Source of the DNA: Akkermansiaceae bacterium
GTDB lineage: Bacteria > Verrucomicrobiota > Verrucomicrobiia > Verrucomicrobiales > Akkermansiaceae
NCBI GenBank assembly: GCA_029253285.1
Contig: JAQWZU010000029.1
Span: forward strand, 1 to 64,000
Length of the DNA stretch: 64,000 bases
Direction of reading: 5' to 3'
Shown: positions 32,320-38,548 of the stretch, in pieces
Layout: each line of letters starts with the position of its first letter
Numbering within the stretch: position 1 is the first letter of the stretch
Made by a program: the position numbers and the translations under genes
Notes under the pieces: model-generated
Seen by the model: the letters and a program-made list of their open reading frames with translations, nothing else
The model's database searches: none
What the model was told of the DNA's origin: nothing

Positions 32320-33453
32320 TTAATCGCCGGGAAAGGCGTAATCGACATCTCCCTTGGTCAGCTCGCAAAAGTAAAAGCGGTTTCCAAATTGTCCTGGATG
32401 AATAAGAGTCTGGAATTGACTGACTTCTTTTTGCGATGGCGATTTAAGAAGCCATTCCTTGGCGCAATGGACGAGGAACCGTCCCTGGGCAGTCACCGGG
32501 TGTTGGGTCAGGCCTAGATCGCGTGCGGCATTTTCGACGGAGGTGAAATTGACGTCTTCGGTGAGATCTTGCTCTCCGGGGAAATCGAGAGGGTGGGCGT
32601 TTGACTGGTGATTGCGATAGCAGCGGAGGGTCCCGGCCGAACGGGCGGGGTGATGGAGGGATGCTTCGTCCATTCCGTAGTCGATGAAGGTGAAGAGTCC
32701 TTTTTCGAAGATTCCGGAGAGTGGTCCGAAAAAGGAATTGAGGTCGGGGTCGCCCTCGGTGAGGAATCCGTCGGGAAAATCCCCATCATAAGAGAGATCG
32801 ATGGGATCAGGTAGGGTGGCCCACTGGAAAGCTTTTCCATCATGATCGACGGCGGCTTCCCACCATTCGTTTTGGGTTCTGAGGTAAAGCGGCACGGGGA
32901 GGGCGTCGAGGACCTCATTGGCGACGAGAACGCCGATTTTAGCCTGAATGTCCTTTGGATTCGATGTGATGGTGGCTCGCTCACCGAGGCGATCCTGCAA
33001 AAAGAGACATCTTTGGGGAAGCGGTTCGCTAATTACGTAGTGGATAGCTTTGGCAAACTGCGGATCAAGAGCGGGGAGGTAATCGAGGATATCGAGGGCC
33101 AGAGCTCCGTCGTGGGCTCCTATTTCTACGATGGTAAAGGAATCGGGCGAGCCGTTGGCGGTCCAGAATTTGTGAAAACGTCGCGCGAGGAGCTGACCGA
33201 AGACCGGACCAACGGAAATGCTGGTCATAAAATCGCCCTCCTTGGAGGCCGTGGGCGTCTCTGGTCGGGAATAGTAGCCGTGGGTTGGGTGATAGAGGCA
33301 TTCTGCCATGTAATCATGAAAGGAAGTGGGGCCGTTATTTGAGATTCGCGTAATGAGCTCATTGGCCAAGTCAGAGATTGCCCCGGAGCCGGATCGGGGA
33401 TAAGGAAATGCCTGTTGCAGGCCCACTAGGTTGGCTGTTATGCGAAAGCTCAT
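32320..33453 (-). CDS. MidA/NDUFAF7-like SAM-dependent methyltransferase
   Basis: Class I SAM-dependent methyltransferase of the MidA family (DUF185); the human homologue NDUFAF7 methylates an arginine of respiratory complex I. Visible: SFHDYMAECLYHPTHGYY near 44-61, GDFMTSISVGPVFGQLLARR, the SAM-binding VEIGAHDGALALDILDYL, VLVANEVLDALPVPL, and a C-terminal PGQFGNRFYFCELTKG. The target is unknown here. The ATG at 33451-33453 overlaps the 5' end of the divergent PBP frame; no Shine-Dalgarno is obvious, and starts slightly further in are possible. Followed by nadA after 37 bp on the same strand. Confidence 0.85.
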   Translation of the reverse strand: MSFRITANLVGLQQAFPYPRSGSGAISDLANELITRISNNGPTSFHDYMAECLYHPTHGYYSRPETPTASKEGDFMTSISVGPVFGQLLARRFHKFWTANGSPDSFTIVEIGAHDGALALDILDYLPALDPQFAKAIHYVISEPLPQRCLFLQDRLGERATITSNPKDIQAKIGVLVANEVLDALPVPLYLRTQNEWWEAAVDHDGKAFQWATLPDPIDLSYDGDFPDGFLTEGDPDLNSFFGPLSGIFEKGLFTFIDYGMDEASLHHPARSAGTLRCYRNHQSNAHPLDFPGEQDLTEDVNFTSVENAARDLGLTQHPVTAQGRFLVHCAKEWLLKSPSQKEVSQFQTLIHPGQFGNRFYFCELTKGDVDYAFPGD

Positions 33454-33472: not shown

Positions 33473-35914
33473 ATGAAAAAGCGCAGCTTGTTCAAGCGCA
33501 AGGGCTTTTGGATTTTTACGATTATCTGCCTGACGACAGTGGGGATCGGGAGCTATTATGTCGATAAGGAGTTACAGCCCTATCGTGACATCGCTCAGGA
33601 ATACGACCTCGCGCTGATTCCCGTGGTGGAGCAGCCGAGTTTTATTTTGGACCGTAAAGGACGCGAGCTTGGCCGGATTTTTGTTCAGAACAGACACAAT
33701 ATTCCGTTGGAGGAAGTTCCTCCGGTTTTTGTAAACGCAGTGTTGGCCCAGGAGGACCAGCGGTTTTACGACCATGCGGGCGTGGATTGGGTGGGTGTGG
33801 GCCGTGCGGCATACTTGAATTACAAGAGTGGACGCCGGACCCAGGGGGCGGGAACGCTTACAATGCAGTTGGCTCGAAATGCCTTCAACCTTCTCAATGA
33901 GGCAGAAGACAGGGGGTGGTCGGGATACGAGCGTAAGATTATTGAAGCCTTTCTGGCGCTGAGGATTGAGGAAGATCTCCATTTGCAACTGGAAGGTGAG
34001 TTTCCTGATTTTCTGGAGCGAAAGAAGAAGGTGAAGGAGCAGATTGCCGAGTATTATCTCAACCGCGTCCCTTTTGGGGCGGGATTTTACGGGGTGAGAT
34101 CTGCGGCTCTGGGTTATTTTGGAAAAGAGCCGGTTGACCTGGAAGCTCACGAATGTGCGTCCATTGTCGCTTGTTTGAAGAACCCTTCAAAAATGAACCC
34201 TCTGAAATTTCCCGAGGTTAATCGTAAGAACAGGGATCATGTGCTTCGTCGAATGGCCCAAGAGGGAATGATCACCGACGCGGATCGGGATCGGCTGATT
34301 GCCCTTCCAGTCACGCCGAATCCGAATCCGATTCGACGAGGTAAATCACATTTGTATGAGTTGATTGCCAAGCAGGCAAACCAATTGGTGGGGGAAGAAG
34401 CGCTTTCGCAAGGCGGCTATATCATTCGCACGACTATTGATTTGGCCTACCAGAACAAGGTTGAAGAATCCCTCAGGGCTCAATTGGAAGAAGCCGAGAG
34501 CAGGCCGGGATACCAGCACCAGACGTATCAAGATTTTGATCCGGGGATCAAAAAGAGCCCGGATTATATACAGGGATCTGCGTTGATGGTGGATCACACG
34601 ACCGGAGAGGTTTTGGTTCACGTGGGAGGGCGGGATTATGCTCATTCGCAATATGATTTTGTGGAGCTTGGACGGCGGCCACTGGGAACGGCTCTCTTCC
34701 CTTTTATCTACGCGGCAGCATTTGAAAACGGTTTGAACCCAGCGAGCCAACTATTGGACGAGCAGTTGAATGCCCGTCAGTTGATGGTTGGAGGAATGGA
34801 AGGTGTCGTTGGTGAGTGGGGGATGGAGGTTCGTGAGCCGCATTACGAAGGAGAGATTACCGCACGAAGGGGACTGAATGCCTCGAAAATTTCCGCAACC
34901 GTTGGAATGGGAATTAAATTGGGACTAGAGAAGGTTGTCGGAATGGCCAAGGATTTTGGAATCGATATTTCGAGGGAGAAGTTGCTGAACAGACTTCTTG
35001 TTGGCTGGGATCTCGTGAGTTTGCCGGAGGTTGTTATGGCTTATACTACGTTTCCTAGAGGAGGCTCCCGCGTGGCAAAGACTTATTACATTTTGTCGAT
35101 TCAGGATGGAAATGGAGAGTCGCGGTATCGGTCGGATCTATCCTCGCTTGAGAGTGAGCCGAGTTGCTCCGAGGCAACAGCATTTCAGGTTCACTCGATC
35201 CTAAACGATGTCATGAAGACTGGTAACCTTGCCAGTGTTTCCGATGAACTCACTGATGCCCCATTCTCAGGTGGTGGTAAGTCAGGGACTCCCTACGGAT
35301 TTAGTGATGCCTGGATGGTAGGATACAATAGCCGGATTACCTGCGGGGTCTGGATGGGATTTTATAAGGGAAGCCGTACGCCGATTCATGGCGAGGCATT
35401 TGCCAAGGAACTTGCGTTCCCAGTTTGGAAAGAAGCGATGAATGCGGCCTATTCCGATTTCCGGGGCGGGGAGATTGCCCAACCCGCGTCTGTCGTGCGT
35501 CTTCCGACATGCCGGGTGTCGGGGATGAAGCCGACACGTTATTGCAGCGAAGCAGTGGAGGATCCGGAGACCGGAGAATTGACGTTCCGCTCCACCAGCT
35601 ATCCGGAATATTTTCACAAAGGTAGAGATCATGGGATCTGTGCCATTCACGGAAGTGGAGTGAACCCCGAAGAATTGGCTTCAATTCCGACCCGTCGTGA
35701 GGCCTTGGCGATGATCCCAATTAAGCCCCAGGCGCCATTTTTATTGGGGTTCGACCCATACCAAAGTGAAACTCCAACTTTGGATCCGGAGGTGCAAAGT
35801 GATGAAGATTACGTGGGAGCTGAGAATTTGTTTATCGTCAGAGATAGGGTGAGAGGAGAACGTGAAGCCTTGCTGCGACTCCCTAAGCCGTCGCGATTTG
35901 AACTTAAAAAATAG
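33473..35914 (+). CDS. Class A penicillin-binding protein with degenerate transpeptidase site
   Basis: Bifunctional PBP architecture. Start chosen at ATG 33473 (MKKRSLFKRKGFWIF), preceded by GAAGGA; earlier in-frame starts give a long basic leader. One membrane helix at about 10-30, then a GT51 glycosyltransferase with intact motifs (catalytic E94 in QEDQRFYDHAG, GAGTLTMQLARN, KIIEAFLALRIEE). The transpeptidase domain fold is recognisable, but the SxxK position reads G-T406-A-L-F409-P-F instead of G-S-x-x-K-P-F, SxN reads S471-K-I473, and only KSG (603-605) is kept. The enzyme should polymerise glycan strands but probably cannot cross-link peptides or be acylated by beta-lactams. First gene of an operon with three followers. 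Confidence 0.93.
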   Translation: MKKRSLFKRKGFWIFTIICLTTVGIGSYYVDKELQPYRDIAQEYDLALIPVVEQPSFILDRKGRELGRIFVQNRHNIPLEEVPPVFVNAVLAQEDQRFYDHAGVDWVGVGRAAYLNYKSGRRTQGAGTLTMQLARNAFNLLNEAEDRGWSGYERKIIEAFLALRIEEDLHLQLEGEFPDFLERKKKVKEQIAEYYLNRVPFGAGFYGVRSAALGYFGKEPVDLEAHECASIVACLKNPSKMNPLKFPEVNRKNRDHVLRRMAQEGMITDADRDRLIALPVTPNPNPIRRGKSHLYELIAKQANQLVGEEALSQGGYIIRTTIDLAYQNKVEESLRAQLEEAESRPGYQHQTYQDFDPGIKKSPDYIQGSALMVDHTTGEVLVHVGGRDYAHSQYDFVELGRRPLGTALFPFIYAAAFENGLNPASQLLDEQLNARQLMVGGMEGVVGEWGMEVREPHYEGEITARRGLNASKISATVGMGIKLGLEKVVGMAKDFGIDISREKLLNRLLVGWDLVSLPEVVMAYTTFPRGGSRVAKTYYILSIQDGNGESRYRSDLSSLESEPSCSEATAFQVHSILNDVMKTGNLASVSDELTDAPFSGGGKSGTPYGFSDAWMVGYNSRITCGVWMGFYKGSRTPIHGEAFAKELAFPVWKEAMNAAYSDFRGGEIAQPASVVRLPTCRVSGMKPTRYCSEAVEDPETGELTFRSTSYPEYFHKGRDHGICAIHGSGVNPEELASIPTRREALAMIPIKPQAPFLLGFDPYQSETPTLDPEVQSDEDYVGAENLFIVRDRVRGEREALLRLPKPSRFELKK

Positions 35915-35925
35915 AACCAGAAACT

Positions 35926-37167
35926 GTGTCTGCTAGTAGTGATTCTGAGAAAACCGCGGCGCGTTGGATGCCTTTTCAATGCCCAACTTGTTTTGCCTTA
36001 TTTCGTTTACAGAAAGGAAACGCGGGAAGGCGGGGGCATTGCCCTCAGTGTCACGTGGTTCTGACTGTGCCCGTCTTCGGGAAGGAGTATGCTTCTTTCC
36101 AGGGGCAAAAGAAAACCGCATCTGAGGCAAAAACCATCGCGCTGGCTCGGGTTGAAGATCCGGAGGAAGTTAAATCTTGGAAGGATAGCCCTAGTCAGAG
36201 GAAGAGAAAATATATCGGAGAGTCCGATGAGGTGCTCAATTGGGAAGAAGCCAAAAGTGAGGAGGAGAAACCATATTCATGGATGGTGGCGTGTAGCTGC
36301 GCTTTGATGGTGGCGGTTTTATCGGCGGTTGGGATCTATCTGGTAAAGAATGCCCCCAGTAAAAAAGGATGGTCCACATCTGTTGTGATTGGTGATGCAG
36401 CGAGTGCAGCGGCATTGGAAAAAAGCTTAATACTCCCTGAGAATACAAGCTACCTGAATGAGGAGGGTGTTGATGTTACCAAGAAGAAAGTCGAGGAGTA
36501 TGAAAAATTTGATGTGGTGAAGATTGAAAATGCCGTGAAGAAATTCATGACATCAGGTAGCATCCAGGAGCGTCTTGCATTTACTAGGGATCCGGAGCGA
36601 GTGAAGCCATTGATGGAGAAATATTATGGTAATGAGGAGTTTGAGCCGGAGGGGTTCGAAGAACTCAATCGGGGTCAAATCAGATATCGTGGTAATTTTT
36701 TCACTTCGTTCGTCAGGATTGGAGATTTCTCTTCCGGGGCAATTGCGGTCGAGCGTTTTGAAGATGGCGATGACTTTTCCTATCGGGTGGATTGGGAAAG
36801 TTGGGTGGGATATTGTGAGATGTCGGCAGAGGATCTGATTAGAGCGAAGCCTACGGAACCAAAATTGCTGAGAATCCTACTTCGTCAGGGTTCTTATTAT
36901 AACTACGGGTTTAGCGATGAGCGGGTCTGGGCGGCCTACCGGTTGGGTTTCAGAAACAGCGATCGCGCTTTGTTGGCCTATGTTCGCCGGGACTCAAAGG
37001 AGGGAGAGATTCTTGCTGAGTTATTCCGGGATTCGAAGGAATTGCTTTACACTTTGAAAATTCGCTACCCTGAGAATGCCCGTTCAGGCGATCAAGTGGA
37101 GATTGTCGAGCTATTGGAGCAGGGGTGGATTGAAAATTTGCAAGAAGTAGAAAAGAAAGATGAGTGA
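35926..37167 (+). CDS. Zinc-ribbon membrane protein of unknown function
   Basis: 413 residues, GTG start 11 bp after the PBP gene. A zinc ribbon near residues 18-45 (CPTC, then CPQC 22 residues on) is followed by a linker and a single membrane helix near 124-144 (SCALMVAVLSAVGIYLV). The remaining ~270 residues (VDVTKKKVEEYEKFDVVKIE, IQERLAFTRDPERVKPLMEK) form an extracytoplasmic domain I do not recognise. Zinc-ribbon plus helix plus unknown domain proteins are frequent in PVC genomes. Co-transcription with the PBP suggests an envelope role; this is inference. It overlaps the next gene by 8 bp. Confidence 0.75.
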   Translation: MSASSDSEKTAARWMPFQCPTCFALFRLQKGNAGRRGHCPQCHVVLTVPVFGKEYASFQGQKKTASEAKTIALARVEDPEEVKSWKDSPSQRKRKYIGESDEVLNWEEAKSEEEKPYSWMVACSCALMVAVLSAVGIYLVKNAPSKKGWSTSVVIGDAASAAALEKSLILPENTSYLNEEGVDVTKKKVEEYEKFDVVKIENAVKKFMTSGSIQERLAFTRDPERVKPLMEKYYGNEEFEPEGFEELNRGQIRYRGNFFTSFVRIGDFSSGAIAVERFEDGDDFSYRVDWESWVGYCEMSAEDLIRAKPTEPKLLRILLRQGSYYNYGFSDERVWAAYRLGFRNSDRALLAYVRRDSKEGEILAELFRDSKELLYTLKIRYPENARSGDQVEIVELLEQGWIENLQEVEKKDE

Positions 37168-38548
37168 TTTACCAAGGTCGTCTTATGATAAAGCGCTGGC
37201 CATAAATCTGGATCCATCGATCTACGGGACCTTTGCTGAAATTGGCGCAGGTCAGGAAGTCGCCAATTGGTTCTTCCGCGCTTCAGCAAGTGCTGGAACG
37301 GTGGCAAAAACGATTTCGGCCTATGATATGAAAATTAGCGACGCCCTCTACGGTAAAGGCGAGCGTTACGTTTCCAAGAGTCGTGTCGTGGATATGGTCA
37401 ACTACGAGTATGAATTGCTTGAGGAGCGCCTCGGCGAATCACGTGGGAGTGAGTCGCGCTTTTTTTCATTTGCCAACACCGTAAGGGCGCGTGGCTATCA
37501 GGACTCCGGCGAATGTCATGGATGGTTGGCGGTTCGGTTTCAGGAGCAACTCTTCAAGGAATCGGGAACGATTCTCCTGCATGTGCGATTACTGGATGAG
37601 GAGAATGTCGACCAAATGGAGGCCCTGGGGATTCTCGGAGTGAATCTGATTTGGGCCGCTTATCATCATAGCAGGGATTTGAGCGCGTTTGTTTCCTCAT
37701 TGATCGATTTTCTGTCGGTGGAACGGGTTGAAATCGATATGCTGACTTTTTCGGGTGCACCATTTGCGATGGTTGATAACCGGATTTGTGCCCTCGAGTT
37801 GGTAAGGCAGGGGGTGACTCCTGCTACGGTTTTCATGCCTGATGGCGAGGTTGTTCAGGCGGCCGAGGCGTTTTATAAAACTCCCTTGCTTCTATTGAGG
37901 GGAAGTTTTCTACCGGTTACCAAATTGCATCTGGATATGTTGACGCAGGCCGGGGAGGTTTTTCCCAGTGAAGGAGTTTCCGAAAACGCTCGGCCCTGCC
38001 GCGAAGTTTGTGAGGTTTCATTGAGCAATCTCTTGCGGGATGGTGAGGTTGATTTGGTGTCTTTCCTGGACCGTGCGAATACTCTGCAGGCCTTGGGGAA
38101 GGTTGTGATGATTTCCAATGCTCCCGAGTTCCATCGGGTTGCCGCGATGCTACGGCTCTATACTCGTGAGCCGGTGGGGATGGTTCTGTCAATTGGGCTT
38201 CTTAATGAACTCTTCAAAGAGAAGTGGTCAGAAAATCTTGCGGGAGGGATTTTGGAGTCGTTTGGAAGATTGTTTAAAACCGGGATCGCGCTATTGGTTT
38301 ATCCTTGGCGAAATCGAAATGGGGGTGAGTTGGTGACGGCTGATAATTTTAGAGCCCCCGAGGGATTGAGGCACTTGTATCAGCATTTTTTTGAGAATGG
38401 GATGATTCAGAGTATCGCATGTGGAAACGAGGAACTATTGGAAATGACAGGGAGGCAGATCATGGCAAATGCCTCTGATGGTAAAGAATGGAAAAAGTGG
38501 GTTCCTGAAGAAGCCCGGGCATTGGTGGAATCCCACGCACACGTTTAA
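37160..38548 (+). CDS. Conserved protein of unresolved function (family often mislabelled TonB receptor or NaMN adenylyltransferase)
   Basis: 462 residues, soluble, no signal peptide. It belongs to a well-conserved family that I recognise from Bacteroidota and other phyla, with hallmark segments INLDPSIYGTFAEIGAGQEV (residues 15-34), KTISAYDMKISDALYGKG, SFANTVRARG, GHGWL-like GECHGWLAVRFQ, GILGVNLIWAAYHH, GSFLPVTKLHLDML and NLAGGILESFGRLFK. Database names for the family vary and none is supported by a biochemical study that I know. The high conservation argues for a core enzymatic role. Translationally coupled (8-bp overlap) to the zinc-ribbon gene and 4 bp ahead of the antiporter. Confidence 0.8.
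   Translation: MSDLPRSSYDKALAINLDPSIYGTFAEIGAGQEVANWFFRASASAGTVAKTISAYDMKISDALYGKGERYVSKSRVVDMVNYEYELLEERLGESRGSESRFFSFANTVRARGYQDSGECHGWLAVRFQEQLFKESGTILLHVRLLDEENVDQMEALGILGVNLIWAAYHHSRDLSAFVSSLIDFLSVERVEIDMLTFSGAPFAMVDNRICALELVRQGVTPATVFMPDGEVVQAAEAFYKTPLLLLRGSFLPVTKLHLDMLTQAGEVFPSEGVSENARPCREVCEVSLSNLLRDGEVDLVSFLDRANTLQALGKVVMISNAPEFHRVAAMLRLYTREPVGMVLSIGLLNELFKEKWSENLAGGILESFGRLFKTGIALLVYPWRNRNGGELVTADNFRAPEGLRHLYQHFFENGMIQSIACGNEELLEMTGRQIMANASDGKEWKKWVPEEARALVESHAHV

Follow-up and report, generated by a model that had tools for sequence, protein, structure and literature searches.

Several studies bear on what a class A penicillin-binding protein (PBP) does when its transpeptidase (TP) is inactive. 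E. coli PBP1b S510A still polymerizes glycan and supports cross-linking by YcbB (PMC5089857), and pneumococcal PBP2A with an inactive TPase can likewise support class B PBPs (PMC4632607). However, when TPase-dead E. coli PBP1B was mixed with GT-dead PBP1B, cross-linking was not restored (PMC4632607). Therefore, cross-linking by a partner is not automatic. Class A PBPs of Streptomyces without an SxxK motif have also been listed. Their SxN and KTG motifs are mostly conserved, and they were still assumed by the author to act as PBPs (PMC6273383). A glycine-containing tetrapeptide is present in the peptidoglycan of V. spinosum (PMC12283558). Our literature searches, on class A PBPs whose TP is inactive and on class A PBPs of Verrucomicrobiota, found nothing directly on the verrucomicrobial lineage in the open-access papers covered, which is weak evidence of novelty.

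Here we describe a class A PBP gene in a 64,000-nucleotide stretch of Akkermansiaceae DNA (the window), in which the TP domain has kept its length and lost two of its three motifs. We refer to proteins of this kind as the pseudo-TP type. Sequence-close relatives of the host are Akkermansiaceae, Roseibacillus, Luteolibacter, Haloferula, Persicirhabdus, and Rubritalea.

Domain architecture and transpeptidase motifs

The gene occupies an open frame of 827 codons on the plus strand, starting from TTG 33431, and a GAAGGAAAAAG stretch precedes the ATG at 33473 (Table 1). The protein begins with the transmembrane anchor of class A PBP architecture, seen both as a hydrophobic segment and as a model helix. 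Its GT51 glycosyltransferase (GT) domain scored 163 bits against PF00912 (cut-off, 27), and the catalytic residues E108, D109, H115, Q146, K169, and E172 are invariant in 107 nonredundant relatives. The TP fold matched PF00905 at 4.2e-8 (33.2 bits; cut-off, 22.1). These findings bear out the first-pass annotation, which had described an intact GT51 domain followed by a full-length TP domain with no frameshift. The protein did not reach the NCBIfam cut-off for PBP_1a_fam (TIGR02074; 354.3 against 508.75 bits) or for Penicillin-binding protein 1C (TIGR02073; 258.6 against 494.2 bits). In an AF2 model (33 sequences; mean pLDDT, 87.1), the GT and TP domains are both folded, and the solved structures that match the model best are PBP1a and PBP1b.

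Table 1. Features of the locus, with positions in the window
Feature	Position	Strand	Evidence
Divergent upstream gene	32320..33453	-	Neighbor kept in 104/110 loci, not in Akkermansia
Class A PBP with predicted inactive transpeptidase domain	33473..35914	+	ATG start; open frame from TTG 33431
N-terminal membrane anchor (FWIFTIICLTTVGIGSYYV)	33506..33562	+	Sequence; helix 5-37 in AF2 model
GT51 glycosyltransferase domain, full set of catalytic residues	33662..34255	+	Pfam PF00912, 5.6e-48; residues invariant in 107 relatives
Transpeptidase-fold domain, full length, noncatalytic by motif	34574..35329	+	Pfam PF00905; AF2 model resembles PBP1a/PBP1b over GT and TP
Former SxxK: T-A-L-F	34688..34699	+	Sequence and orthologue alignment
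Clade signature G-E-W-G-M-E	34811..34828	+	Near-invariant in pseudo clade, variable in canonical paralogue
Former SxN: S-K-I	34883..34891	+	Sequence and orthologue alignment
Retained KTG motif: K-S-G-T	35279..35290	+	Sequence and orthologue alignment
Zinc-ribbon membrane protein, adjacent gene 12 bp downstream	35926..37167	+	Zinc ribbon N-terminal, TM helix 119-141, extracytoplasmic domain

All three TP motifs read exactly as first reported. The nucleophile tetrad is T406-A-L-F409 in ATG numbering (T420 to F423 in the frame from 33431), so that of the motifs of an active D,D-transpeptidase, SxxK and SxN are absent and KTG (as K[ST]G) is present. The Thr lies at the start of helix 400-413 in the AF2 model, and the nucleophile of PBPs sits at the start of the corresponding helix. 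Within the TP domain and immediately after it, [ST]xxK occurs at two further places only, S514 and S697 (33431 numbering), and neither is conserved in orthologues. Therefore, there is no true SxxK elsewhere in the domain. We infer that the TP domain is catalytically dead and that an acyl-enzyme of the SxxK type cannot form.

The domain also has conserved residues of its own. A new motif, G-E-W-G-x-E, is nearly fixed in the clade (E462, 99%; G464, 100%; E466, 100%), and near-invariant clade-specific sites include P417, A656, F657, and P685 as well.

Distribution, selection, and phylogeny

Exactly one copy of the pseudo-TP type, stop-free in every case, was found in 119 of 121 Akkermansiaceae genomes that are at least 95% complete. 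This used a profile of the pseudo-TP type with a threshold of E 1e-85, which the best-scoring canonical protein seen (8.6e-82) narrowly missed. In all full-length Akkermansiaceae copies that we read, the nucleophile position is Thr. Therefore, chance and sequencing error are excluded. The orthologue alignment suggested by the first-pass annotation gave the same result, with Thr and a non-Lys residue conserved in the orthologues. In the nonredundant set, Akkermansiaceae members combine Thr with F, L, I, H, or Y at the Lys position and with S/A-K-[IVL] at SxN. One truncated protein departs from the pattern (T..E). Other families of the order and class have Thr with T, L, K, F, V, I, Q, or A, and their SxN position is often GKN, or else SKN, SHN, and similar. 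Across the clade the Lys position is F, L, T, H, Y, I, V, Q, A, or K (a few distant relatives have Lys, kept or regained), the SxN variants are SKI/SKV/SKL or GKN, and the KTG variants are KSG, KGG, KPG, KTS, and QTS.

Our 107-row alignment was preselected for Thr, so its 107/107 is by construction. An independent figure comes from a quick tree, in which 57 of the 58 clade rows have Thr. The exception, L045 (G050:C27:19200-21850), lies in the pseudo clade and reads S-A-F-K, S-K-N, and K-T-G, with G-E-W-A as well. Its motifs suggest that L045 may have an active TP, as an ancestral active form or a reversion. Together with the few relatives that have Lys, it suggests that transpeptidase activity may persist in parts of the wider clade. 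A separate observation concerns L209 (G286:C4:40800-45000), a second, faster-evolving pseudo-type copy that accompanies the ordinary one in the same genome. It has T-A-F-L, S-K-L, and a changed KTG.

Selection on the two halves was compared among four close relatives (94 to 96% identical). The pseudo-type gene had dN/dS values of 0.05 to 0.11 in the TP domain and 0.05 to 0.14 in the GT domain, and the canonical paralogue had 0.04 to 0.10 and 0.06 to 0.09, respectively. The values are similar, and therefore the pseudo-TP is under about the same constraint as an active TP. Mean conservation of TP columns was 0.586 in the pseudo type versus 0.610 in the canonical paralogue. The TP domain is under strong purifying selection. 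A frameshift, an assembly error, or a pseudogene is rejected by this and by the open frames. The maintained pseudo-transpeptidase on an intact GT domain that had been proposed from the window is thus upheld by a single-copy core gene, purifying selection on the TP domain, and clade-specific invariant residues. The pseudo-TP is a fixed lineage trait and not a decayed gene.

We built a careful tree without the motif columns. Canonical paralogues form one group (support, 97/94), and an order-level pseudo group that includes the Akkermansiaceae is firm (99/99). Clean monophyly of all pseudo-type proteins was weakly supported (62/38), and we do not claim it. The quick tree gave a support of 95 for the whole pseudo group except for one long branch, L209. 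The tree requires two changes in the nucleophile state and five at the Lys position. A single loss of Ser is likely, and the pattern of motifs fits a stepwise path in which Ser changed to Thr first and Lys was then lost repeatedly. Lys may have been regained later.

Neighboring genes and other wall proteins

Three operon partners had been put forward as possibly linked to the PBP: a zinc-ribbon membrane protein, a conserved unknown protein, and an antiporter. The first of these held up, because the zinc-ribbon gene is next to the pseudo-TP PBP gene in 85 of 129 loci of sufficient length, that of A. muciniphila among them. Broad linkage did not hold for the conserved unknown protein (35 of 68 loci) or the antiporter (24 of 59), which are linked more locally; neighbors were detected by HMM, and divergent copies may be missing from these counts. 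The zinc-ribbon protein had no Pfam or NCBIfam match. Conserved features include invariant Cys residues and the motif DWESW, and the protein is modeled with a TM helix and an ordered domain outside the cytoplasm. Foldseek returned only weak OB-fold-like matches (best E, 0.006), which we did not use. The zinc-ribbon membrane protein is a candidate partner and would be the first candidate for a dedicated regulator.

The divergent upstream gene, possibly SAM-dependent-methyltransferase-like, had no NCBIfam match. Farther downstream, positions 37160-38548 (plus strand) encode a 462-aa protein with about 73 to 97% identity within the genus, which exceeds the conservation of the PBP. It had no Pfam or NCBIfam match.

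In the window's genome, six proteins match PF00905 and four match GT51. The canonical class A PBP that the first-pass annotation had recommended looking for is present (S-I-F-K, S-R-N, and K-T-G-T), as is a PBP1C-like protein (S-T-L-K, S-L-N, and K-T-G-T). There are three class B-type proteins. Two of them (L001 and L002) have SxxK and KTGT by pattern search, and the third (L003) has SCN and KTGT, with an SxxK that escaped the simple pattern. Nine proteins are YkuD L,D-transpeptidase-like. About 1.5 kb past the right end of the window lies L008 (G000:C155:64004-67519), a 545-aa protein with an intact GT51 domain and a remnant TP. It is a second TP-defective class A-like protein of this genome, with homologues throughout the genus. 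In some genomes (e.g., G032, G033, G034, and G027), the short GT51 protein adjoins the canonical class A PBP.

We take genome G168 to be A. muciniphila ATCC BAA-835, from three exact copies of CAGCACGTGAAGGTGGGGAC, a sequence that 131 papers contain along with the name Akkermansia and that is known as the AM1 qPCR primer. Its orthologue has T-A-I-L, S-K-I, and K-T-G-T and contains GILGEWGAE. The genome has three GT51 proteins, namely, a canonical one (S-L-F-K, S-R-N, and K-T-G-T), the pseudo-TP protein, and a 602-aa frame at 1,490 kb. It also has nine YkuD proteins. We saw only one class B-type PF00905 protein in G168. L214, a PBP2-like class B PBP of G080, had no close counterpart there, and its best match was 30% identical (to the other class B protein). 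Elsewhere in the class, the near-complete genomes G066 and G146 had no GT51 matches, and class A PBPs appear to have been wholly lost in some of its lineages.

Proposed role and comparison with known systems

Our preferred reading, with a probability of about 0.7, is that the protein is a dedicated glycan polymerase with a noncatalytic TP module, whose strands would be cross-linked by partners. We favor it because the GT residues are invariant while the TP triad is altered and because the genome also encodes PBPs whose motifs are intact, both a canonical class A enzyme and class B enzymes, together with the nine YkuD proteins. The ancestor would have been a bifunctional class A PBP. From its intact residues, the GT51 domain is predicted to polymerize lipid II. 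The TP domain would be kept to hold, position, or regulate the polymerase and to dock partners. Cross-links between the strands would come from the canonical class A PBP, from class B PBPs, or from the numerous YkuD L,D-transpeptidases. The glycine-bearing tetrapeptide of V. spinosum is compatible with L,D-transpeptidase activity in the group. Nearly every complete Akkermansiaceae genome carries exactly one copy, and the dead half is therefore presumably kept for a reason. We infer the GT activity, the identity of the partners, and the regulatory role.

A tentative alternative is a regulatory pseudoenzyme, in which a remodeled TP cleft would bind a ligand noncovalently (a D-Ala-D-Ala stem, a nascent strand, or a partner) and would gate the GT domain or recruit machinery, with polymerization possibly secondary. 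The KTG Lys and Gly are each retained in 102 of the 106 rows scored, with the Ser and Lys of SxxK lost. In addition, GEWGxE and other clade-specific positions lie between the SxxK and SxN positions, with further ones at F624, A656, and F657, and the TP domain is constrained about as much as an active one. However, a structural need for the fold accounts for the same constraint, and a pure scaffold would not need GT catalytic residues that are all invariant. A broader version, which we consider just as doubtful, is that the TP domain was repurposed family-wide as a ligand-sensing or partner-docking regulator. The regulator would turn the GT domain on and pass strands to L,D-transpeptidases or the divisome, and GEWGxE and the retained KTG would be part of its new binding surface. 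On this broader reading, the class A PBP system would be insensitive to penicillin and would have a membrane partner of its own in the zinc-ribbon protein.

It is very unlikely that the gene is a decaying duplicate on its way to TP loss. The same genomes do hold a GT51 protein whose TP is nearly gone (L008 and the 602-aa frame of A. muciniphila), but the pseudo-TP protein has kept its full length in 119 of 121 genomes, its TP dN/dS is low, and it has new invariant residues. Least probable of all is a TP that is still active by another mechanism, with a Thr nucleophile and another general base such as the KTG lysine: apart from L045 the Thr is near-invariant rather than drifting, and some relatives combine T..K with SKN or GKN and KTG, but the Lys position, SxN, and KTG are all variable, and the Thr may be retained because it caps a helix.

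Under the polymerase reading, beta-lactams should leave glycan synthesis by the pseudo-TP protein unaffected, a point of relevance to wall growth and drug response in A. muciniphila. A class A PBP whose TP is naturally dead throughout a family would demonstrate a selectable, noncatalytic role for the TP fold, which is usually probed only with engineered mutants. Also, annotation as "penicillin-binding protein," or a plain count of class A PBPs (e.g., PMC8406291), would overstate the cross-linking capacity of these bacteria.

The protein shares the order of anchor, GT51 domain, and TP fold with PBP1a-type class A PBPs (A. baumannii PBP1a and E. coli PBP1b; TIGR02074), which include its best solved matches. 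Unlike them, it lacks SxxK and SxN, falls below the TIGR02074 cut-off, and has GEWGxE. The nearest paralogous clade, the verrucomicrobial canonical class A PBP (L004 and L194), has the same architecture but intact SxxK, SRN, and KTGT and no GEWGxE. The Streptomyces class A PBPs also lack SxxK and were not treated as pseudoenzymes (PMC6273383). We liken the two by motif description, and in the verrucomicrobial protein SxN is changed too and the trait has become fixed family-wide. E. coli PBP1b S510A likewise provides, in our model, a GT without a TP, with strands used by other cross-linkers (PMC5089857). However, it is an engineered laboratory mutant, whereas the verrucomicrobial inactivation would be natural and fixed. 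Finally, the monofunctional GT51 enzymes (MtgA/MGT) have the same predicted activity, glycan polymerization without cross-linking. They have no TP domain, whereas the pseudo-TP protein retains a constrained one.
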